IMG/VR virus record: IMGVR_UViG_3300021959_003684
Coordinates: 1 to 30,986 of that record
Reading direction: 5' to 3' (one strand)
Origin: a virus
DNA: 30,986 nucleotides
The notes under the pieces are model-generated. The model worked only from the letters and a program-made list of their open reading frames with translations, was not told where the DNA came from and made no database searches. The translations under genes were made by a program, and so were the position numbers. Below are positions 7,683 to 18,814 of the stretch, one piece after another; the first letter of the stretch is position 1, and each line of letters starts with the position of its first letter.

Positions 7683-8453
7683 TTAGTGCAGTAAAGTGCT
7701 TTGTGTTTTTTTCATACTTGCTTGTGTAAATTTCTGGTAGTTGCCTTTTAGAACTTCAGGCATCTGAATGTAGCTTATTGTAGCACCGTGTTCGTCTGCT
7801 ATTTCTTTTGCTACATCATAGAAACTTTTGGCTACACCTGTTCCAATGTTCCAGACACCTGACTCTTCAACATTAAAGAATCTCTTGTGGTAATCTACAA
7901 CTTGATCCACGTGAATGAAGTCCCGTTTATAACTCTCTGATCCTTCAAAGAGTTTAATGACACCGGACTCCTTAGCCTGTTTAGTGAACTGAGTATGAGG
8001 GCTTGCCTGACCGCCTTTGTGGTCTTCGTGTGGCCCATACACGTTAAAGTACCGAAACGCCTGAGTGATAATAGGAGCCTTCCTCAACTCAATATATTTC
8101 TCAAACATTGCTTTACTACGAGCGTAGTGGTTCTGAGGGTTAAGGGGAGCATTTTCCTCAAAGGATGACTTCAACCCGTACACTGACGCACTACTAGCAA
8201 ACTGAAAGTTTACTTTATTCTTTATACACTCCTCATAGAGATTAATAGAGAAGTCTAGGTTTTGTTTATAAATCTTAGCTACATTCTGCTCTACAGTAGA
8301 ACTTATAGCACCTAAGTGAATAACCCAGTCTACCTCGTTTACCTTAGAGATCGTCTGACCCCATTCGTGGGGTATGACTTCGTGTTCTTCCCTGAGTCCA
8401 CTGACCATGTTCTGACCAATGAACCCACTAGCACCCGTAACTAGGATCTTCAT
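7683..8453 (-). CDS. hldD: ADP-L-glycero-D-manno-heptose 6-epimerase (HldD/RfaD-like), C-terminally short
   Basis: A 256-residue extended short-chain dehydrogenase. It has the NAD(P)-binding glycine motif GASGFIG (residues 7-13) and the catalytic pair Tyr110/Lys114 (YARSK). The HldD-specific blocks FRYFNVYGP (133-141), HKG with Lys146, LFEGSE (168-173), KRDF (176-179) and FTQA (242-245) match E. coli HldD much better than UDP-glucose epimerases. HldD converts ADP-D,D-heptose to ADP-L,D-heptose, the donor for LPS inner-core heptosyltransferases. The protein stops right after FTQASM, about 30-40 residues before the usual C-terminus, and an A7 run lies near the end. It overlaps the cupin gene by four bases (ATGA). 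Identity is confident; full activity is not certain. Confidence 0.88.
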   Translation of the reverse strand: MKILVTGASGFIGQNMVSGLREEHEVIPHEWGQTISKVNEVDWVIHLGAISSTVEQNVAKIYKQNLDFSINLYEECIKNKVNFQFASSASVYGLKSSFEENAPLNPQNHYARSKAMFEKYIELRKAPIITQAFRYFNVYGPHEDHKGGQASPHTQFTKQAKESGVIKLFEGSESYKRDFIHVDQVVDYHKRFFNVEESGVWNIGTGVAKSFYDVAKEIADEHGATISYIQMPEVLKGNYQKFTQASMKKTQSTLLH

Positions 8454-8806
8454 TTTTGGCTGTCGCCCTTGGCTACACGGTAGTTATCCTCAACAGAGTC
8501 TGGGGTAGATACCTCCACTATAGTACCCTCTACTAGACAGGTAATACGGTGGGGAACAAGAGGAGGGTTATGCCAAGTGTCACCCTCTTTAAGCTCTTCT
8601 ACGTGCTCACTAGCATTCTCAGTATCAATCCAAGTTACTAAAAACTTACCAGTTAGGACAAACCATGTTTCATCCTTTTCTCTGTGAAAGTGCATTGAGA
8701 ACTTAGCACCCTGCTTAAAGTTCATGAACTTACCACAGTACTTATCATTAGTAACCCAGATAAGCTCTGATCCCCAACCCTTTTCTACTACACCCTCAAG
8801 CCGCAT
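8450..8806 (-). CDS. Single-domain cupin, sugar-phosphate isomerase type
   Basis: A 118-residue cupin like the C-terminal cupin of type II mannose-6-phosphate isomerases: EKGWGSE near residue 8, then GKFMNF, and metal ligands His39, His41 and Glu46 (SMHFHREKDE) and His86 (PHR). Such cupins bind a divalent metal and often isomerise phosphorylated or nucleotide sugars. It overlaps the kinase gene by 11 bases and the epimerase by 4, so it sits in the middle of the heptose set. It may supply a sugar isomerisation, possibly the missing GmhA step, but no residue proves the substrate. A non-catalytic binding role is also possible. Confidence 0.75.
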   Translation of the reverse strand: MRLEGVVEKGWGSELIWVTNDKYCGKFMNFKQGAKFSMHFHREKDETWFVLTGKFLVTWIDTENASEHVEELKEGDTWHNPPLVPHRITCLVEGTIVEVSTPDSVEDNYRVAKGDSQK

Positions 8807-9551
8807 TGTTTATTTCCTCTAGTGTGGGTGCATATACACCTATGTGCTGTACTGTGATTGAAGCAGCAACCATTGCAAACTTTATTGCTTCATCCATATT
8901 ATATTCTTCACAGTACTTATAGGCAAGAGCAGCTAGGAATGTATCACCAGCCCCACACACATCGAAGGCTTCCACTTTAGGTGGAGTGTAGGTCTTGTTA
9001 TTATACTCGACTTTCTTTGAGCCGTAAGTAACTATGAGGTCTTCTGTCAGCCTGTCAGAGGCTTCGTACTCATACTGGTTAATCTTAACAAAACATCCAT
9101 CAAAGATAGATAGATCTTTCTTCTTAGTATCAACAAAGATAGGACCACTGTACTTGCTTATAATCTCAGTGATGTCATCTTCGTTAAAGAAACCCTTGTT
9201 ATAGTCAGACACAATGACTACATCGTACTCGCTAAAGTCTTTATCTGCGGCATCAACAATTTGTTTAGAGATCTTTTCGTCTACTCTAAGGAGTTGCTGA
9301 CCAGTCTTACTGTCTAGGTATCTGTGTTTTCTCTCACTAAACTCTGTTACAATGTGAGCTTCAGCACCAAGAGCAAGTACGTTATTGAAGACGTTAAATG
9401 CCATGCCCTTCTTTGTGACAACCCTATCCATATCTAAGACAGGAACAGGGGCTTCTGGGCTTATTCTATTGATACTACCGTAGTGATAATCATCGTAGCA
9501 GCTGTCGCCTATCAATAAAATCTTGAATGGTTTTTGTCGTTGATTGACCAT
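8796..9551 (-). CDS. hldE1: D-glycero-beta-D-manno-heptose 7-phosphate kinase (HldE N-domain type), stand-alone
   Basis: A PfkB/ribokinase-family sugar kinase of about 251 residues. SINRISPEAPVPVLDM near the N-terminus matches the HldE kinase signature (TSRISPEAPVPV in E. coli). DYNKG (about 140) and the C-terminal DVCGAGDT with the catalytic Asp are present. It phosphorylates C1 of heptose 7-phosphate with ATP. It is about 60 residues shorter than the E. coli domain, with the lid region after LGAEAHIVTEF compressed. An upstream ATG at 9563 is in frame, but GAGAG five to six bases before the ATG at 9551 favours 9551. Either start overlaps the adenylyltransferase gene by more than 60 bases. 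In E. coli the two are one fused protein, kinase first; here they are separate and in the opposite order. Confidence 0.85.
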   Translation of the reverse strand: MVNQRQKPFKILLIGDSCYDDYHYGSINRISPEAPVPVLDMDRVVTKKGMAFNVFNNVLALGAEAHIVTEFSERKHRYLDSKTGQQLLRVDEKISKQIVDAADKDFSEYDVVIVSDYNKGFFNEDDITEIISKYSGPIFVDTKKKDLSIFDGCFVKINQYEYEASDRLTEDLIVTYGSKKVEYNNKTYTPPKVEAFDVCGAGDTFLAALAYKYCEEYNMDEAIKFAMVAASITVQHIGVYAPTLEEINNAA

Positions 9552-9903
9552 TGGTTCTCTCATAGAAGATTACTTTCTTACAGTACTCCTCCCCAATGAT
9601 TGGCTTCCCCTTCCAATCTGACCCCTTAACCATAATGTCAGGTTCAAATCTTCTTATAATTTCTATTAGCTCTTGGTCAGTGTTGAACACGGCAACATTA
9701 CTAACAGGCTTAAGAGATAGCATAAGACGTTTACGAATTGACAATGGGTTAAATGGTCTTCCTTCCCCCTTGTTATACTCAATACGTGTGTCTGTGTCAA
9801 TAGCAACTAGAAGATGATTACCCAAAGAAGAAGCATATTCAAGCATGTCAAGGTGACCTGAGTGTAGTACATCAAACGATCCGTTGACAAACACTTTCTT
9901 CAT
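9490..9903 (-). CDS. hldE2: Heptose 1-phosphate adenylyltransferase (HldE C-domain type), stand-alone
   Basis: A 137-residue nucleotidyltransferase of the HIGH superfamily. VNGSFDVLHSGH at residues 6-17 carries the HxGH nucleotide-binding motif. KGSDW (93-97) and NGQSTT (118-123) match the HldE C-terminal domain (KGGDY and GCSTT in E. coli) rather than TagD-type glycerol-3-phosphate cytidylyltransferases. It would join AMP from ATP to D,D-heptose 1-phosphate, giving ADP-D,D-heptose. It is divergent from gmhB, with only 29 bases between their starts, and the gmhB promoter overlaps its first codons. The ribosome site is weak. Confidence 0.87.
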   Translation of the reverse strand: MKKVFVNGSFDVLHSGHLDMLEYASSLGNHLLVAIDTDTRIEYNKGEGRPFNPLSIRKRLMLSLKPVSNVAVFNTDQELIEIIRRFEPDIMVKGSDWKGKPIIGEEYCKKVIFYERTNGQSTTKTIQDFIDRRQLLR

Positions 9904-9932: not shown

Positions 9933-10580
9933 ATGTCCAGATTCAAACATATTATTGATCAAGAACCAAGTCAACAGGCTCAACAAGAACTTCCACCGGA
10001 TTGGCCTAAGGTATTTCCTAAGTCTATAGTCGGCTTAGACCGTGACGGTGTTATCAACATTGACAGGGGTTCTTACATTACTGACCCTGACGATTGGGAG
10101 CCTATCGAAGGTTCACTGGAGGCTATCCGTAAGCTAAGACTAAAGGGTTATAAGGTAGTTATCCTGACTAACCAAGGTGGCATTATAAAAAAGGAGCAGA
10201 CACACGAGCAAGTGGAAGCCATCCATCAACGTATGTTTGAGGTGTTTGGCAATGCTGGTATCTACTCCATTGATGGTTTGTTCTATTCTGAGTCTTCACT
10301 TAAGAATGACATCTTTGCTAAACCTAATCTTGGTATGTTCCACAGAGCAGAGAAAGAAATCTTTGGTGACAAGGCTAGGTTTAAACAAGGTGGCTTCTAC
10401 GTAGGTGACAAGATGTCCGATCTTAAAGCTGCGGAACGTATTGGTGCCACCCCGATCCTAGTACGTACTGGTCACGGAGTGGCTACGGAAGGAGAGTTGA
10501 AGAAGTTCTCTAAAGAGAAGCTAAGAAAGAAGACGAAAGTTTTCGACAACCTCCTCCGATTTGTTGAGAGGTTGCCTTAA
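9933..10580 (+). CDS. gmhB: D-glycero-D-manno-heptose 1,7-bisphosphate 7-phosphatase (GmhB-like HAD)
   Basis: A 215-residue HAD phosphatase of the HisB/GmhB group. It shows GLDRDGVIN with nucleophile Asp36 and acid/base Asp38, LTNQGG at 78-83, Lys130 in KPNLGM and VGDKMSDLKAA at 157-167. In the heptose pathway it removes the C7 phosphate. It carries a 30-residue N-terminal extension. The usual GmhB zinc loop (CxH...CxC before KP) is replaced by a short loop without Cys (YSESSLKNDIFAKP), so the substrate call rests partly on the neighbours; a polynucleotide-phosphatase-like HAD remains an alternative. It is the only plus-strand gene here, has its own promoter and a strong AAGGAGA ribosome site, and shares a palindromic TTAA with the stop of the convergent carbamoyltransferase gene. 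Confidence 0.8.
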   Translation: MSRFKHIIDQEPSQQAQQELPPDWPKVFPKSIVGLDRDGVINIDRGSYITDPDDWEPIEGSLEAIRKLRLKGYKVVILTNQGGIIKKEQTHEQVEAIHQRMFEVFGNAGIYSIDGLFYSESSLKNDIFAKPNLGMFHRAEKEIFGDKARFKQGGFYVGDKMSDLKAAERIGATPILVRTGHGVATEGELKKFSKEKLRKKTKVFDNLLRFVERLP

Positions 10581-12292
10581 GCAGCAGCCTCCCCCAAGTC
10601 TTCTACAACTGAGTCGTTGTAAGGGTAGTGTATCAACTTACCTACCTCCGGTAAGTACAAGTACTCAAGGTCTGAGTTCTTGATTGTACGTAGGGCATCC
10701 TCAAAGGTCTCTACGAGAGGCTCACCTGCTAGGTTAAAGCTCGTATTAAATACGATAGGTACACCCGTCTTATCTTTGAAGGCTTTGATAAGTCCGTAGT
10801 ACACAGGGTTCTGTTCTTCTGTCACAGTTTGGATACGGCAAGTACCGTCTACGTGTGTGATAGCAGGAACTTCACCATGCTTAGACAACTTGAAGTCCAT
10901 TGCATACATCATGAATGGTGACTCTTCCATTCCGTATGTCTCGAACCATTCCTCAAAGTCCTCTTGCAACATAGATCCAGCAAATGGACGGAACCACTCC
11001 CTACCTTTTACTTCGTTGACATGATCCTTACCTTTAGGGTCAGTGGGATCATAAAGGATAGAACGGTTACCTAGAGCACGAGGACCAGCCTCTGACCTAC
11101 CTTGGAACAATGTAACAATCTTACGATCAACTAGTAGAGTAGCAATGTCCTCTGGTGTTACATCTGTCGCCTCAATGTCCCCAAAGTCATAAGACTCTTC
11201 ACGTTCTGGTCCAAGGTATAAAGTGCTAAGGGGACGAACAGTCTTGTCCTTAGTCTCGGTGTAGTGGACCAGTTGAGCCAATCCTAGAGCAGTACCGCCA
11301 TCATGTGAAATAGGATCTACATAGATGTTCAGGTCAGGGAAACGTTTCTTGTAGTAGTAGTTGGCTACACAGTTAAGACCGTAACCACCAGCAATGACAA
11401 TGTTCTTCTTGCCCGTCATTGCCACAGCTTTTTCAATCAAGTCACCAACAAGACGTTGGGTTTCATCTTGGACTGCCCATGCTAGATTTTTAGCAGCTTC
11501 TGTAACTTTAGAAGGATCATTGTGCCAAGCTCGTGGGTCTTTATTAAGTGTTAAATATGGGTGACGTGTGTGATCAATGTGAGCACCAGCAGGATACTGA
11601 GGAATAAATACGTTCTTATTGCCTCGTCCTTCATAGAAGAGGGTAGGAATAAGGTCATCGTCTTTACCGTATGGTGCAAGACCCATAGTCTTACCAGCTT
11701 CAATGAACCCAAAACCAAGGTACTCAGATACAGCCTCATATGCTTTAACAAGGGTAATAGCTGAGTCCATTTCTACACCTGACCCAACTACACGTTGCGT
11801 GTCGGCATTACCACCGAAGGACTGAAAGACAGATTTAATACCATCCTCATAGCCACATTCAAAGATGGTCTCAGTCTCAAAACCAGGGTTCTTATTACCC
11901 TTTTCATCCAATTGGATCTCGTGGCGTGTTCCAGAACCATCTACGATAACAGCTACAGCATCTTCAAAACCTGAGTTATAAAAAGCTGCAGCAGCATGTC
12001 CAACGTGGTGAGCATGTCCTGCGTTTATGATCTTGACGTTAGGGTTGTGTTTACGAACCAAAGCACTGTAGGGGTCTTCACCTGTCCAAGGTAGCTGAGG
12101 CAGCTGTGTGCTTGTCCCACCAAGGACAATAATATCAATACCGTATTTTAAGCCTTCAAGGATACCCATAAGTGGGTTACCATCGTACTTACTACGGGAC
12201 AGTCGTTCCTCTTCAACATAGAACTCAAGCTTACCATCAACAAGGAGAGCAGCACTACCATTATGACCAGGGTTAATTCCTAGAATATTCAT
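10577..12292 (-). CDS. NodU/CmcH-family O-carbamoyltransferase
   Basis: A full-length 571-residue member of the NodU/TobZ family, which transfers carbamoyl from carbamoyl phosphate, through carbamoyl-adenylate, to a sugar hydroxyl. The N-terminal Kae1-like domain shows NPGHNGSAAL (8-16), the metal-binding cluster HAHHVGHA with His93, 95, 96 and 99, and VDGSG with Asp118. The central IAGGYGLNCVAN and SHDGGTALGLA blocks are typical. The C-terminal domain has GRSEAGPRALGNRSIL, WFRPFAGS and FNTSFNLAGEP. It lies one base after the glycosyltransferase gene. With ADP-heptose genes beside it, a carbamoylated heptose is the natural product guess; Pseudomonas aeruginosa LPS core is known to contain carbamoyl-heptose. 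Confidence 0.92.
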   Translation of the reverse strand: MNILGINPGHNGSAALLVDGKLEFYVEEERLSRSKYDGNPLMGILEGLKYGIDIIVLGGTSTQLPQLPWTGEDPYSALVRKHNPNVKIINAGHAHHVGHAAAAFYNSGFEDAVAVIVDGSGTRHEIQLDEKGNKNPGFETETIFECGYEDGIKSVFQSFGGNADTQRVVGSGVEMDSAITLVKAYEAVSEYLGFGFIEAGKTMGLAPYGKDDDLIPTLFYEGRGNKNVFIPQYPAGAHIDHTRHPYLTLNKDPRAWHNDPSKVTEAAKNLAWAVQDETQRLVGDLIEKAVAMTGKKNIVIAGGYGLNCVANYYYKKRFPDLNIYVDPISHDGGTALGLAQLVHYTETKDKTVRPLSTLYLGPEREESYDFGDIEATDVTPEDIATLLVDRKIVTLFQGRSEAGPRALGNRSILYDPTDPKGKDHVNEVKGREWFRPFAGSMLQEDFEEWFETYGMEESPFMMYAMDFKLSKHGEVPAITHVDGTCRIQTVTEEQNPVYYGLIKAFKDKTGVPIVFNTSFNLAGEPLVETFEDALRTIKNSDLEYLYLPEVGKLIHYPYNDSVVEDLGEAAA

Positions 12293-12293
12293 A

Positions 12294-13220
12294 TTACTTC
12301 ACCTTCTTTTCAATGTCTTTTACGATAGACTCGTACATTTTATTGATCTCTTCGTCTGTGAACTCTACAGTGCTTTCGTTCATACGATCAGCAAGGTGAC
12401 CCTCAAGACCAGAAATACGAATAGGTGAATAAACTTTAGGAGTGTCCCTTTCGATAATATTAAAGTAGTTAGGGTAGGTGGTATTAATAGCAAATGTTGA
12501 ACCAAGTACCACTGTACCTGGTTTATTCAAAGCCCTAGCCATGTGCTGACCGACAGAATCACAACCAATAAAGTAGTCGGCTGCGTCAATAAAAGCAGAC
12601 CACATACGCAGGTCAGCTTCTGGCTTCATAGTGTAAGTATCTTGTTCCATCCAAAAGTTTTTCTCTGCAAATAGTACAAGGTTGTACTTAGTTGAGAGCT
12701 TTTTAACAAGTTTGAGATACGTGTCAGGATTAATAGAACGAGATGATTGATCAAGCAAAGCATTTTCATTTGGCTTTTCCATAGATCGTCCAAATGGTTG
12801 GATTACTACGGTCTTTTGCTTCTGCTGTTGTTGCTTTACTTGTTGTATAAAGTTAGCAGCTTGAAGTTCTTCATTCCTATTTGTCTTAAGAATTGGAACA
12901 CCAAGGTCTGAGTGGTCATCTGTCTCGTTAATCAGATAGTCAAAGGCTTCTGCCAATGACTTCTCTTGTTTAAAGTAACCAGGAACACGATAAGGTTCAG
13001 GCGAGATAACTCTGTCAGCATCTAAAAGAAACTGCTCAAATGCACCCTTTTGGTCTGGGTTGAACACCTTGTCTTGTAGTTCAGGAATACCCCAGTATAG
13101 TGTGTCCCACCCACTGACTAAAATCCTGAAGTCACTGTTAGTTTTGTTGTATTTGATAAAGGCGGGGATTGCCGCAATAGCTCTACCAGCACCCCCATCA
13201 ATCATAAAGACGGTTTTCAT
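12294..13220 (-). CDS. GT9-like glycosyltransferase (heptosyltransferase type)
   Basis: A 308-residue GT-B protein resembling family 9 (WaaC/WaaF heptosyltransferases). The C-terminal donor domain is the clearest part: VVIQPFGRS, then LVLFAEKN, then GCDSVGQHMARALNKPG and VVLGST, matching the family pattern DSGxxHxAxAxxxP. A Gln/Lys-rich stretch (VKQQQQKQK) links the two domains. In the N-terminal loop GAGRAIAAIPA the Asp that is the presumed catalytic base of WaaC appears replaced by Arg. It is the first gene of the sugar operon, with a promoter and hairpin upstream. The neighbours suggest ADP-heptose as donor; the acceptor is unknown. Confidence 0.75.
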   Translation of the reverse strand: MKTVFMIDGGAGRAIAAIPAFIKYNKTNSDFRILVSGWDTLYWGIPELQDKVFNPDQKGAFEQFLLDADRVISPEPYRVPGYFKQEKSLAEAFDYLINETDDHSDLGVPILKTNRNEELQAANFIQQVKQQQQKQKTVVIQPFGRSMEKPNENALLDQSSRSINPDTYLKLVKKLSTKYNLVLFAEKNFWMEQDTYTMKPEADLRMWSAFIDAADYFIGCDSVGQHMARALNKPGTVVLGSTFAINTTYPNYFNIIERDTPKVYSPIRISGLEGHLADRMNESTVEFTDEEINKMYESIVKDIEKKVK

Positions 13221-13317: not shown

Positions 13318-13611
13318 TTAGTCACCAAAGAAACAACCGAAAAAGGTTGCAGAACACGATCCTGCCAAACAGTTTCCTTTTGGAATCACCATGTTCATCT
13401 CGAACACATTCGGACATAGATTATTTCCAAAAATACATACTCCACCTGTTGTAGTCGAACCTGCGTATGGGGTTGCGAAAATAGTTGTAACACAAAAATT
13501 TCTTGTTAATTCTGCACACGTCCTTGAATTACCTATACACATATTAACGTACTCAATTGGAGTAACAGTTGAGGCGTCTGCTGCGGGTGTGATATAATTA
13601 GTTAAAGGCAT
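13318..13611 (-). CDS. Small cysteine-rich protein (8 Cys in 97 aa)
   Basis: A 97-residue protein of unknown family with eight Cys spread from residue about 25 to the C-terminus, often flanked by Gly, Asn or Ser (IGNSRTC, GNNLC, KGNCLAGSC). There is no signal peptide or clear membrane segment. The ribosome site AAGGAA precedes the ATG, and the gene follows the 485-aa Cys-rich gene by 15 bases. The composition matches that neighbour and the fibre C-terminus, so it is probably part of the same tail or adhesin structure. Disulfide or metal-bound folding is possible. Function unknown. Confidence 0.65.
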   Translation of the reverse strand: MPLTNYITPAADASTVTPIEYVNMCIGNSRTCAELTRNFCVTTIFATPYAGSTTTGGVCIFGNNLCPNVFEMNMVIPKGNCLAGSCSATFFGCFFGD

Positions 13612-13626
13612 TTCATAATTTTCCTT

Positions 13627-15084
13627 TTATGTAGATTTGATACCATAAACTGTTAGTTTAGACGAAGGAGCTATGGAATAACCACGAGATGTAATAGTAG
13701 CTGCATCTGGCACTGCTGATTTAATACAGTAGTCTGTCCCTCCGTAGCATGAGGGAAGTACAAGACCCTCAAAAAATGTTTCGTCAAACAATGCTACCGT
13801 AGGTTCATCTGTAATCCCTGTTGCATAGTCCTCTGTTAACATAGAGTATAAAGCATAAGTATTTCCTAAAGAAGTTAGGCAACAAGAAGAGTCTCTGAAG
13901 TAGATAGTATCATTAAACATACAAGCACCATTGTAGATGAAAGGGTTGGTAAAGTCTACGGTACAAATACATCTATAACAACAATCACATTGCCTCATTG
14001 TTATGATACCGGCACCTGAAAGATTACAGAAACCACCGTCTTTATAGAAGACTGCAATCCAAGTTTGACATTTTTCTGACCAGTAAGCACCAACGTTCAC
14101 AGTGTTTCTTGAACCATCAACAATGCTTTCATTTTCCCTGCAAATCCGACCAATGCAACACACATTTCCAGAACAAAGGTTAAAAGTAGTTAGATTTCTG
14201 CAATCCGCCCCATTGCATCCAGGAGTGGTAAAGATACGGCAAGCAAAACAACCCTTCTGTGCAGTAGAGAGGAAATGTCTTCCGCAACAATAGTATGCGC
14301 AGAAAGCACCGTTTCTACAACAGTTCATAGTGGGAATCCCACAGTTCCAAGCATCTTGGTTACAAGACATATCCCAAGCTCTAAGACAGTTACTGCCGCA
14401 AATGAATATAAGAATATCATCTTGGAACATAGGAATTTGACAAACACTAAAACCAACATGGCAGATACAGCAATTACAATAAGCTTTTGATACGTTAAAG
14501 TAACGATCAGTACAGTTACAATTTTCAAAAGTTGAGACAAGGTAAGAGCAATTATTGGTAATTCTTTTAGAACCATATTGACCTATATTGTTGTTGTCTG
14601 TATTTGAACATGCGTGACTTGCGCCACAAAGAACTGGAAGTGTTGCACCAGCCTCTTCTATGCCATTTACCGCACAAGAATCAAAACGGCAGATGTTTGC
14701 AAAACAATCGGATCTATTAATACACAGACCAGTCCAAAAATCATCGGCACAATTTGTGACGTAATACGTCATTTTTGAAACAGTGGAGTCACTATACTTT
14801 AGAGGATAATTACCTGTAGTGTCTTTGACACATAGTGTTGAGCTTGGCGGTACAATAAAAGTACCAGAAGCAGAAGTCTTCAGATCTGTATGAACTTTAT
14901 GTCCGTCTAGCTCAAGATCTAGTTTGTAATTGAAAGAACTTGAAGTGCAATTGTCTGTTTTATATACATCTCTGATAATAAAAGATGTACTTGAATCAGT
15001 CGTAATAACAGCCTGAGTAGCATCACTTCCTAGTGTTGAGTCAGTTAATGTAGTATCTACTATTCTACAGAATTGATCTGCCAT
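13627..15084 (-). CDS. Extremely cysteine-rich tail-associated protein (about 47 Cys in 485 aa)
   Basis: A 485-residue protein with about 47 Cys by hand count, nearly 10 percent. Most lie between residues 100 and 410, including CC pairs and short CxC motifs (AYCNCCICHVG, YYCCGRH, QCDCCYRCICT). The N-terminal about 100 residues and the C-terminal about 70 are Cys-poor, beta-rich and Thr/Ser-rich like tail-fibre domains. There is no signal peptide. A strong ribosome site (AAGGAAAAG) precedes the ATG, 13 bases after the fibre gene. The position next to the fibre suggests a receptor-binding or tip protein. The Cys spacing is irregular and fits no zinc-finger, EGF or ferredoxin pattern I know. Metal cluster binding or dense disulfides after release are the options. 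Confidence 0.75.
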   Translation of the reverse strand: MADQFCRIVDTTLTDSTLGSDATQAVITTDSSTSFIIRDVYKTDNCTSSSFNYKLDLELDGHKVHTDLKTSASGTFIVPPSSTLCVKDTTGNYPLKYSDSTVSKMTYYVTNCADDFWTGLCINRSDCFANICRFDSCAVNGIEEAGATLPVLCGASHACSNTDNNNIGQYGSKRITNNCSYLVSTFENCNCTDRYFNVSKAYCNCCICHVGFSVCQIPMFQDDILIFICGSNCLRAWDMSCNQDAWNCGIPTMNCCRNGAFCAYYCCGRHFLSTAQKGCFACRIFTTPGCNGADCRNLTTFNLCSGNVCCIGRICRENESIVDGSRNTVNVGAYWSEKCQTWIAVFYKDGGFCNLSGAGIITMRQCDCCYRCICTVDFTNPFIYNGACMFNDTIYFRDSSCCLTSLGNTYALYSMLTEDYATGITDEPTVALFDETFFEGLVLPSCYGGTDYCIKSAVPDAATITSRGYSIAPSSKLTVYGIKST

Positions 15085-15097
15085 TTTCTTTTCCTTT

Positions 15098-18000
15098 TTA
15101 GCTTAATGCGTTTCCGTATGCCATAGCTGTGGCTACGGAGTAACCAGCTATATTAGTTAGTTGTGAACCATCACCCTTGAATGCCGTGGCGCAGACTGCA
15201 GTTGTTGCACAAACAATTGGAGCTACGACACATGTCGTACCGCACATTATGGGTGACTTCATACAAGTATCTGAGCAAAAAATGTTAGCACAGAAGTTAG
15301 TTCCTAGAGATCCATTGCTTGATGCTTTAGTCCCTAGGCAAGTAACAATAGTTCCAGCACAAGTTGTTGTAGCTTTACCTGACAAACATGTTGCCAGTCC
15401 ATCAACATTAGCTACTGTGTGGTTGTGGCTATCATCAGCGATAGTAAGGCTAAGGTTAGCATTACCTAAGTTGGTGAAAGTAGCAGAACCTGTAGCATCT
15501 CCACAGATACAGAGGGTAGGATCAGACGTTGCAGTAGTCGCAATGCTTACGTTACCTGAACCATTTACACCTGAGACAGAACCTGTGACTGCACCAGTAA
15601 GGCTGATAGATCTTCCTGTAGCCCAAGTCGTTGCAGTATCCGCATTACCTGTTACGTTACCTGTAACTGGGGCACACACTCTTGCAAAGTTTACTGTGTC
15701 ACCTGTACCTACAGCCTGCCCAATAGCAATGTTAGAGGCATTTACTGTAACACCTGTTCCTGCGCCAACATTAAAGGTTGTACCGTCTAATGTCAAGCCA
15801 GAGCCAGATGAGTAGATAGATGTTTCAGCAACCTCTGAGAATACAATGGCAGTTGTACCAAAGACAATTGTACCTGGAGTACTTAGAACATCTAGGTGAC
15901 CTGCATTTGTACTACCTTCTTTAATAAAGAATGCATCACCTTGACCAAAAGCATTAGGGTCAGATGGGGCTGCAGTATCAGTATCTGAAGAACGAGTAAT
16001 AACCCAGTTAGTACTTCCAGAGCCAGTGTTAGTAACTACGTAAATACCATTCTCGTACTGGTTAGTTTGTTGAGAAATAATAAGACGATCATTTACTGAA
16101 AGTGTTACATCGTCTATTTCTAAAGCTGCTTGTGTACCGTTGTTGGTAAGTGTAGCTCCAACACCACTAGATCCATTGTCGTAAGTAGCACTTAAAGATG
16201 CTGTAGTCTCTACTCTAACTGGAGAGTGGTAGTGCAAACCAGCAGCAGCAATTGTGTCTACGTACTCTTTTGTTGCGAGTTGGCAAGCAGCAGTTGGGTT
16301 AGCACTAACACAGACAGACCCGAAGCATACATTGTCTGAAGTGCCTACAGACTGACCAATAGAGATGTTACCACTTGAGTATGCTACACCTGTACCACCC
16401 ACTAAGTGACTGTCAACTCTAGCTGTTGTATAGTACTGATTTGTACCTTCTGCTAGATCATCTGTGTCATGGTTAGAAAGGGATGAAACAGTACCAGTTA
16501 CATTACCAGTTACGTTACCTGCTAGGGTACCATACAGGTTTGTAGCACAAACACTTGATACGTTGTGTATACACTCAGAGTTGCCATCCAGAGGTCCACC
16601 CAGTTGTGGTGTAGTGTCTTCAACAACCTGAGTAAGGGCATCACCAAGGGTGAATGCTGCAGAAGACCAAATAGTTCCTGTATAAATTCTCAGAGCATTA
16701 TCTGTTGTATTCCAGTATAATGTACCCGTTAGTAGAGCGTCACCATCATTGTCTACTGTAGGGTCTGATGCCTTATCACCAAGGTATCTATCATCAAAAT
16801 CGTCATAGGATGTGGCAGCATTGTTAGCTGATGTCAAAGCAGCAGAAGCTGAGTTGCTTGCATTTGTTTCAGATGTTGCTGCATTAGTCTCTGAAGTTGC
16901 AGCATTGGTAGCAGAGGTTTCAGCAGCTGTAGCTGACTGCAAAATACCGTCAACGTAAGTCTTAGTTGTGAGGTCAGCAGCATCAGTCGGTGTGTAAGTC
17001 GTGGTGATCTTATTGGCACCCATGTCAATGGCACCAGCCATTGTACCACCAGACAAGGCTAGTCTTGTATCACGTTGGGTGTCAGTGTAAGCCTTAGTGC
17101 TGGAATCTTGTGCAGCAGTAGGATCACCTAGTCCTGTAATCTTTGATGTTCCCATGGCAATAGCACCAGACATGGTTCCACCAGTCAGGTTCAGCTTAAG
17201 TGCATCTTGTGTGTCTACATAACCCTTACGAGTTAGTGTATCATCTGTAGAAGGTGTAGCTGTAGATGTAGCCTTGTTAGCACCTAGTACAACGTCACCA
17301 GTCATTGTACCACCAGCTAGTGGGAGCTTACCTGCAATGCTTGTTGTGATTGTTGTGCTAAAATCTGGATCATCACCAATAGCTGCAGCAATCTCGTTAA
17401 GGGTATCTAGTGTACCTGGAGCTGAGTCAATTAAGTTTGAAACAGAGGTGTCAACATACAATTTGTTGGCTGCATCACCATCAGCACTCGGAGCTGCAAG
17501 AGATGTAATCTTTGCAGAACCCATGTCAATTCCTGCAGAACCGGACATGTTTACATCAGCAAATGTTGATGTACCTACTGAAGTTACATCTCCTGTTACG
17601 TTACCCGTAACGTTTCCTGCGACATTACCTGTGAGGTCACCTGTTACATCCCCAGTAACATCACCCGTGATATTACCTGTAACGTCCCCTGTTATGTCCC
17701 CAGTAACATTACCCGTAACATTACCAGTTAGGTCACCAGTAACATCACCTGTAACGTTTCCTGTGACTGTACCTGTTACTGGACCTACAAGACTAGTACC
17801 TGTGATGGTTGTACCAGTTATAAGACCTGGCGTAGTGCCGCCAATAATAACACCATCAACAGTACCGCCATTGACATCGACTGTAGCAAAAGTACCCTGT
17901 CCTGACGTACTAACTGTAGTAAAGCTGCCAGAAGCAGCAGTAGAAGCACCGATAACAGTGCCATCAATATTACCTGCATTAATATCTACCGTAGCTAGTG

Positions 18001-18814
18001 TTGCTGTACCTGTGGCAGACAAGTTTGGAACGGTTACTGTATCACCAAAGCCTGCAACACCCGTGACACTAAGTGTACCTGCCAGTGTAGTGTTTCCTGT
18101 AATCCCTGCAGTACCACCAACAGTAAGGTTGCCACTTGAACCAAGAGTTGTAAACTCACCAGAAGCAGCAGTTGTATTACCAATAACAGTGTTATCTATC
18201 GTACCCGCATTGATGTCGGCTGTATCAGCCACAAGGCTATCAATATTAGCAGTGCCAGTGATGTAAGCATTGTTCCACTCACTTCCTACTGCACCTAGAT
18301 TATATGTTGCATCTGCAGAAGGGATAAGATCTGAAGCAACATCAGCATTTACAGTGACTGTATCAGCAGCATCACTACCAAGAACAGTATTACCATTTAC
18401 AGTAAGATTCCCAGTAACAGTAGCATTCTCGTGTACTGCCAGAGTGTCTATATAACCTACACCGTCAATATACAGATCTTTAAACTCAGCACTTGAAGAG
18501 CCTAGATCAATGTCATCGTCTGTTACAGGGACTAAGGCACCATCCTGAATACGGATTTGTTCAGTTGTGACGCCACCAACCTCAGAGAAGAAACCAACTC
18601 TGTTATTAACAGTGTCTACAACGACCTTATTAAGACCGTCAGAATCCGCAATGAGAGGTACGTAACCACCTTGCCCTGTGCTATTATCATGCTTGTGGCC
18701 TGTAGAGGCTGCGAAAGCTGCTAGTAATTGGTTGAGTTCATTGTTAATTGGTTCAGCTTTAATAACCTGCCCAGAAACAATATCGGCAACACTCTGTCTT
18801 GTATAACCTGCCAT
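15098..18814 (-). CDS. Large repetitive tail fibre protein
   Basis: A 1,238-residue fibre. The N-terminal half has beta-repeats such as NLTVNGNTVLGSDAADTV, then about 17 copies of a Gly-(Asn/Asp)-(Val/Leu/Ile)-Thr tetrapeptide near residues 344-410. Four phage-fibre modules follow, of the form GGTM.G.I.MG..KI (or similar) ending in KxYVD, known from many tail fibres. A helical Ala/Ser/Asn/Thr segment (residues 590-640) precedes a second domain. The first about 747 residues have no Cys; the remainder has about 18, mostly near the end (NFCANIFCSDTCMKS). It ends with a GDGSQLTNI-type fibre motif. The start ATG directly abuts the previous stop. It most likely binds the host surface. Confidence 0.85.
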   Translation of the reverse strand: MAGYTRQSVADIVSGQVIKAEPINNELNQLLAAFAASTGHKHDNSTGQGGYVPLIADSDGLNKVVVDTVNNRVGFFSEVGGVTTEQIRIQDGALVPVTDDDIDLGSSSAEFKDLYIDGVGYIDTLAVHENATVTGNLTVNGNTVLGSDAADTVTVNADVASDLIPSADATYNLGAVGSEWNNAYITGTANIDSLVADTADINAGTIDNTVIGNTTAASGEFTTLGSSGNLTVGGTAGITGNTTLAGTLSVTGVAGFGDTVTVPNLSATGTATLATVDINAGNIDGTVIGASTAASGSFTTVSTSGQGTFATVDVNGGTVDGVIIGGTTPGLITGTTITGTSLVGPVTGTVTGNVTGDVTGDLTGNVTGNVTGDITGDVTGNITGDVTGDVTGDLTGNVAGNVTGNVTGDVTSVGTSTFADVNMSGSAGIDMGSAKITSLAAPSADGDAANKLYVDTSVSNLIDSAPGTLDTLNEIAAAIGDDPDFSTTITTSIAGKLPLAGGTMTGDVVLGANKATSTATPSTDDTLTRKGYVDTQDALKLNLTGGTMSGAIAMGTSKITGLGDPTAAQDSSTKAYTDTQRDTRLALSGGTMAGAIDMGANKITTTYTPTDAADLTTKTYVDGILQSATAAETSATNAATSETNAATSETNASNSASAALTSANNAATSYDDFDDRYLGDKASDPTVDNDGDALLTGTLYWNTTDNALRIYTGTIWSSAAFTLGDALTQVVEDTTPQLGGPLDGNSECIHNVSSVCATNLYGTLAGNVTGNVTGTVSSLSNHDTDDLAEGTNQYYTTARVDSHLVGGTGVAYSSGNISIGQSVGTSDNVCFGSVCVSANPTAACQLATKEYVDTIAAAGLHYHSPVRVETTASLSATYDNGSSGVGATLTNNGTQAALEIDDVTLSVNDRLIISQQTNQYENGIYVVTNTGSGSTNWVITRSSDTDTAAPSDPNAFGQGDAFFIKEGSTNAGHLDVLSTPGTIVFGTTAIVFSEVAETSIYSSGSGLTLDGTTFNVGAGTGVTVNASNIAIGQAVGTGDTVNFARVCAPVTGNVTGNADTATTWATGRSISLTGAVTGSVSGVNGSGNVSIATTATSDPTLCICGDATGSATFTNLGNANLSLTIADDSHNHTVANVDGLATCLSGKATTTCAGTIVTCLGTKASSNGSLGTNFCANIFCSDTCMKSPIMCGTTCVVAPIVCATTAVCATAFKGDGSQLTNIAGYSVATAMAYGNALS
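17584..17784 (-). repeat. Tetrapeptide repeat block of the tail fibre
   Basis: About 67 residues made of Gly-Asn/Asp-Val/Leu/Ile-Thr units (12 bp each). The codons vary between copies (gtaaca, gttacg, gtgacc-type variants), so the protein pattern is better conserved than the DNA. That suggests selection for the peptide, probably a beta-solenoid or trimeric beta-shaft. Confidence 0.85.

Follow-up and report, generated by a model that had tools for sequence, protein, structure and literature searches.

Some marine phages carry putative attachment-tip proteins of extreme cysteine content that are genetically linked with a cassette encoding a GT9-like transferase, a carbamoyltransferase and, usually, enzymes of the ADP-heptose synthesis type. 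The cysteine density goes with this cassette and not with the protein family. Since a single enzyme cassette goes with a single amino acid in proteins that are otherwise unrelated, the simplest reading is that of an enzyme and its acceptor. The cassette and the cysteines are very probably linked in function, and the cysteines are probably acceptor sites for a phage-encoded S-linked carbamoyl-heptose on the distal adhesin; cysteine as the acceptor, heptose as the sugar, the S-glycosidic linkage and a benefit to the phage are the parts of this reading that we infer.

Cysteine-rich protein and cassette of the window

The window (the whole stretch of DNA analysed, 30,986 nucleotides) represents part of the genome of an HMO-2011-type marine podophage. 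Its terminase is 84% identical to that of Roseobacter phage CRP-13, and the order of portal, coat, tail protein and fibre is the same as in HMO-2011-type relatives. The Cys-rich genes sit downstream of the fibre, the slot for variable tip proteins in these phages, and are followed directly downstream by the cassette. The features are as follows.

15098..18814, minus strand: tail fibre, 1238 residues, conserved N-terminus
13627..15084, minus strand: hyper-Cys protein, very likely a distal fibre/adhesin, 485 residues, 47 Cys
13318..13611, minus strand: second small Cys-rich protein, 97 residues, 8 Cys (8.2%)
12294..13220, minus strand: GT9-like ADP-heptose transferase, 308 residues, the proposed modifying enzyme
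10577..12292, minus strand: NodU/TobZ-type O-carbamoyltransferase, 571 residues
9933..10580, plus (opposite) strand: GmhB-like heptose bisphosphate phosphatase (NF006506, 8e-39, below the curated cut-off)
9490..9903, minus strand: HldE C-domain-like heptose-1-phosphate adenylyltransferase (TIGR02199, 3e-29, below the curated cut-off)
8796..9563, minus strand: HldE N-domain-like heptose-7-phosphate kinase, shortened (TIGR02198, 1e-42, below the curated cut-off)
8450..8806, minus strand: small cupin, sugar isomerase/epimerase-like (Cupin_2, 1e-9)
7683..8453, minus strand: HldD-like ADP-heptose 6-epimerase (TIGR02197, 3e-66, below the curated cut-off)

The initial annotation had described the 485-residue protein as encoded by an intact open reading frame with a good ribosome site and as containing about 47 cysteines (nearly 10%), concentrated in the middle. 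These points were borne out: the frame starts with ATG behind an AAGGA-like site, the exact count is 47/485 (9.7%; 32 TGT and 15 TGC codons) and successive blocks of 50 residues contain 2, 1, 5, 5, 9, 9, 5, 7, 3 and 1 cysteines. With an expectation of 1–1.5% Cys, a protein of this length would contain at least 47 with a probability of roughly 1e-23 to 1e-31, which rules out chance, and since an identical protein is encoded on a second IMG/VR contig (the twin of the window) the excess is not an artefact of a single assembly. The remaining likely genes of the window have 0–1.7% Cys, the sole exception being the 97-residue frame, for which no homologue was found except in the twin contig. In the fibre, 16 of the 18 cysteines lie in the C-terminal 434 residues; a tblastn search with this end gave no match, the low-complexity filter possibly having hidden some.

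The 485-residue protein has no known domain in Pfam or PHROGs. Its N-terminal ~100 residues are conserved with the Cys-poor gp38 of Roseobacter phages CRP-113 and CRP-171 (two and one Cys, respectively, in 444 residues) and with a Cys-rich relative in locus L011 (464 residues, 50 Cys). Because the CRP-113 homologue has merely two cysteines, the fold is independent of them. The protein very probably serves in host attachment (as a distal fibre or receptor-binding protein), as one part of the initial interpretation had it, and a biological meaning of its Cys excess is supported.

Several cassette genes score below the NCBIfam curated cut-offs, so their labels denote the best family and are uncertified. 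The two HldE-like activities, kinase and adenylyltransferase, reside in one fused protein in E. coli; here they are encoded by separate overlapping genes (overlap 9490–9563), with the kinase cut to 255 residues. The GT9-like enzyme scored 17.6 bits against PF01075 (cut-off 22), short of the sequence threshold for GT9, and 2e-7 against the RfaQ and heptosyltransferase III models, again below the cut-off. Its AF2 model (pLDDT 84.5, pTM 0.86) was compared with the PDB using Foldseek; the best matches were WaaF (1psw, 9e-9), TibC (4rap, 9e-9), the GT9 protein 3tov and WaaC, with E values of about 1e-8 to 1e-6. The top 30 matches were all WaaF, WaaC, TibC or GT9 chains, anything else being weaker, and the fold predicted by the model is that of a GT-B heptosyltransferase. 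The 571-residue carbamoyltransferase contains both the Carbam_trans_N and Carbam_trans_C domains (PF16861, 5e-62; PF02543, 7e-21). Its profile matches TobZ (6e-59), GdmN and the novobiocin O-carbamoyltransferases, enzymes that act on small-molecule hydroxyls.

Linkage of cysteine density and cassette across phages

A search of IMG/VR with GT9 as the sole query gave 64 loci with a GT9 relative, 62 of which had enough upstream sequence (L140 and L181 are uninformative, the sequence ending near or inside GT9). In 61 of the 62, an ORF with a Cys content of 6% or more, the threshold for hyper-Cys in the locus counts, lies upstream of GT9 (median gap 387 bp); these loci and those of the carbamoyltransferase search include near-duplicates and close relatives and are not independent. 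The one real exception, L169 (IMGVR_UViG_3300030117_001806), has GT9, carbamoyltransferase and heptose genes (without GmhB) and no hyper-Cys gene on its 47.7 kb contig. The tip protein of L169 is Ser/Gly-rich, with one Cys. The carbamoyltransferase search yielded 60 further loci; together with L111, 51 of 61 contain an ORF at or above the 6% threshold, and of the ten remaining loci four have fibres with 4–5% Cys. GT9 and the carbamoyltransferase occurred together in all 43 loci with enough sequence, with heptose genes nearby in 35–36.

To sample this phage type without bias, contigs were collected that carry the conserved tail protein adjoining the fibre and at least 5.5 kb downstream. GT9 and the carbamoyltransferase were present in four of four hyper-Cys contigs, one of which is the twin of the window, and in none of 11 Cys-poor contigs (Fisher p = 7e-4). 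Neither gene was found in nine Cys-poor HMO-2011-type isolates, and one scan of genome contigs revealed no relative of the phage GT9 in cellular genomes.

Loci L011, L050 and L056 have the same cassette as the window, or its first genes, and neither L050 nor L056 has a hyper-Cys protein that matches that of the window. In L111, with a different gene order, a 1003-residue protein with 99 Cys lies beside the carbamoyltransferase and GmhB. The 112 distinct hyper-Cys proteins of cassette-bearing loci fell into 28 BLAST clusters, one of them a spurious ORF, leaving about 27 unrelated clusters of 6–12% Cys.

The pairing was also observed in unrelated phages, the isolated cyanomyophages P-SSM2, S-SSM7, S-CAM3, S-CAM1 and Sf-FS3, where proteins of 8–12% Cys (P-SSM2 gp304/306 and S-SSM7 gp114–116 among them) lie between the fibre and a GT9–carbamoyltransferase–HldE cassette, the GT9 relatives being 35–37% identical. 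Two single-cell contigs show a similar pairing. S-CAM8 has a distant carbamoyltransferase, with no GT9 found, and no hyper-Cys protein in the region that was read. The heptose genes of S-SM2, P-TIM68, Sf-CH8 and S-T4 lie in other islands, with no GT9 found and no hyper-Cys proteins nearby; the structural region of S-SM2 (60–110 kb) contains no hyper-Cys protein.

The cassettes of S-SSM7 (L247:18983-25973) and Sf-FS3 (L355:17162-21620) also include 2OG-Fe(II) oxygenases, and that of S-SSM7 a tryptophan halogenase, possibly for extra decoration of the sugar or the tip. PSSM2_312 (L246:20289-20645) and its relatives, which occupy the position of the small cupin of the window and match Pfam Cupin_2, are annotated as 'cysteine dioxygenase', an assignment that looks doubtful.

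In another phage type (L032, L055 and L112), Cys-rich fibres with up to 122 Cys have a GT9-like protein nearby (97% in profile comparison), and no carbamoyltransferase was found. These fibres contain 'GCNNIAIGCSAL' repeats resembling a common fibre repeat converted to Cys. Hyper-Cys fibre genes also stand beside a patatin-like gene (PF01734) at L024:8159-8965 and L116:7254-8192, records in which neither GT9 nor GT2 was found and which perhaps use a different Cys-modifying chemistry.

Cysteine patterns, proposed mechanism and rival explanations

The Cys content of hyper-Cys proteins averages 10%; it has its minimum, 3.4%, in the first 20 residues and reaches 10–12% past residue 100. In 84 non-redundant proteins no simple repeat, sequon or recurring Cys/His ligand motif was found, His amounted to 2%, C–C adjacency was enriched 1.4-fold and Pro, Gly and Glu were depleted beside Cys, in agreement with the initial description of a Cys distribution with no known repeating pattern. 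Cys ranks with the best-conserved residues of each family, about equal to Gly and Trp, under an alignment scoring that favours Cys matches. Conservation is 0.73–0.78 at ~60% identity (0.93 in one small set), i.e. about a quarter of the Cys sites differ. Free replacement of Cys by Ser or Thr, for which a check of homologues had been proposed, was not seen within hyper-Cys families. The low conservation expected of freely exchangeable sites was not found, and since Cys is well conserved the acceptor sites are not claimed to be interchangeable.

Ser and Thr together make up 16.8% of hyper-Cys proteins versus 22% of Cys-poor analogues (a small sample, n = 5), and Cys replaces Ser, Thr, Ala and Asn instead of adding to them. 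Of the codon pairs with gain or loss of Cys, 69% differ at the first and also at the second base, compared with 32% for other substitutions; as gain or loss thus usually takes at least two base changes, selection on the amino acid is indicated and mutation bias is unlikely. Recoding or mutational bias as the source of the TGY codons was rejected on these grounds and because the excess is confined to the adhesin genes. No significant Pfam match was obtained for the window protein or the other hyper-Cys proteins of the HMO-type and cyanophage loci tested, and an AF2 model covering 227 residues of a hyper-Cys relative (pLDDT 57) had no PDB match below 1e-3.

In the mechanism that we propose, the two HldE-like enzymes (kinase and adenylyltransferase) would work with the GmhB-like phosphatase and the HldD-like epimerase to supply ADP-heptose, the GT9-like enzyme would transfer heptose to surface cysteine thiols of newly made fibre proteins and the TobZ/NodU-type enzyme would O-carbamoylate the sugar. 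The resulting virion tip would display S-linked carbamoyl-heptoses by the dozen, which would coat or shape the surface that contacts the host. Candidate benefits to the phage are shielding, hydration, mimicry of the LPS core and binding to host lectins. Counting against S-heptosylation are L169, a cassette without a Cys-rich protein, L024 and L116, hyper-Cys fibres without any GT9 found, and the conservation of Cys at about the level of Gly and Trp, which exceeds the need of redundant acceptor sites. We lean slightly towards the broader view that dense S-linked decoration of fast-changing, unrelated receptor-binding proteins by dedicated heptosyl- and carbamoyltransferases is widespread, being common to podophages and cyanomyophages that infect marine bacteria; other phages might have GT9-only or patatin-linked versions.

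The initial annotation had offered a disulfide-armoured tip or a metal-binding adhesin. In the former, thiols reduced in the host cytoplasm would be cross-linked after lysis in oxic seawater and stiffen the fibre tip, the cassette merely co-travelling in a host-range island. The high conservation of Cys within families and the excess of neighbouring Cys favour such armour; the parity of the Cys number, however, is random (45 even and 39 odd among the 84 proteins), and this parity, together with the quarter of Cys sites that differ at 60% identity, departs from the near-invariant, paired and even-numbered cysteines of a disulfide-rich adhesin. A similar Cys density in many unrelated proteins also speaks against armour, which does not account for the 61/62 coupling to a heptosyl/carbamoyl cassette or for the absence of hyper-Cys proteins in cassette-less relatives, and we regard it as unlikely. 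An adhesin that scavenges iron, zinc or copper, or engages a metal receptor through the metal, is suggested by the high Cys content and the CC and CxC pairs. The low His content, the absence of a recurring spacing motif or Pfam match and, again, the similar density in unrelated proteins argue against this idea, which offers no reason for the cassette and is highly improbable.

Two further explanations keep the sugar chemistry and detach it from cysteine. The cassette could modify the host LPS for superinfection exclusion, the hyper-Cys tips being separately adapted to that receptor with no enzyme–substrate relation. Phage sugar genes have been so interpreted before (PMC7029224), and the heptose genes of S-SM2, P-TIM68, S-T4 and Sf-CH8 belong to large surface-sugar clusters without hyper-Cys neighbours. 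These clusters, however, occupy other genomic sites and none of these phages yielded a GT9/carbamoyltransferase pair, whereas in podophages and cyanomyophages the pair adjoins the hyper-Cys adhesins; LPS modification, moreover, needs no cysteine in unrelated adhesins, and this account seems quite unlikely. Alternatively, the cassette could glycosylate Ser or Thr of the adhesin, with another role for Cys. TibC, a top fold match of the GT9 model, transfers heptose from ADP-heptose to adhesin serines, and that the characterized protein heptosyltransferases TibC and AAH modify Ser counts against a Cys acceptor (PMC4358343). The compositional feature that the proteins have in common is nevertheless Cys, and their Ser and Thr content is lower, not higher, than in the five analogues; there is little probability that Ser or Thr is the acceptor. 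S-linked heptosylation of the cysteines is the reading that we prefer.

Comparison with known systems

If the S-linked reading is correct, the cassette would represent a protein-glycosylation system in which the acceptor is cysteine and the substrate is the phage's own attachment tip. Mass cysteine modification would join the known ways in which viruses dress attachment proteins, and adhesins of unrelated families would have been remodelled to one amino-acid rule suiting one enzyme. Receptor-binding work with unmodified recombinant tips of such phages could mislead. The decoration is testable on cultured cyanophages. The literature searched, with most subscription journals outside its reach, held nothing relevant on cysteine-rich phage fibres or Cys heptosylation.

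Sullivan et al. (2010) noted the joint presence of several of these 'LPS' genes in P-SSM2, S-SM2 and S-SSM7 without settling their use, and considered 'stuffer DNA' a possibility; the paper's 'LPS' list includes the cassette genes T4-GC 304, 305, 307 and 308 of P-SSM2 and S-SSM7 (PMC3037559). The link to cysteine-dense neighbours is not mentioned there, and the word 'cysteine' is absent from the main text (PMC3037559). S-linked decoration, if confirmed, would give these sugar genes of P-SSM2 and S-SSM7 a role.

Carbamoylated heptose occurs in Pseudomonas LPS, where it is of the WapO type (PMC8005017). The phage system would share the carbamoyl group on heptose and differ in that its partner is apparently a protein-linked sugar. 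Glycocins carry glucose or GlcNAc at one or two positions of a small peptide, compared with dozens of Cys in large virion proteins. S-glycosylation is known from these small bacteriocins, such as sublancin and pallidocin (PMC6405829). A sugar on cysteine, putative in the phages, would be common to both.

The phage enzyme shares its predicted fold with the GT9 enzymes WaaC and WaaF, and we take its DSxGQHxA motif to resemble the GT9 nucleotide-binding motif. It differs from them in that its gene adjoins hyper-Cys adhesins and not LPS core genes, and the identity in structural alignment is ~10–13%. The BAHT enzymes (TibC and AAH, acting on the TibA/AIDA-I adhesins) are similar in that the gene for a GT-B enzyme using ADP-heptose lies beside that of a multi-site adhesin substrate, both donor and substrate being putative in the phages, and 4rap is among the top structural matches. 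In contrast to BAHT, the system is phage-encoded, its putative acceptor is Cys and not Ser, and its cassette adds a carbamoyltransferase and ADP-heptose synthesis genes; the four-Cys iron finger is absent, the phage GT9 having 0–1 Cys in HMO-type phages. With no iron finger and a score short of the GT9 Pfam cut-off, the phage system resembles TibC/AAH but is not a member of that family.
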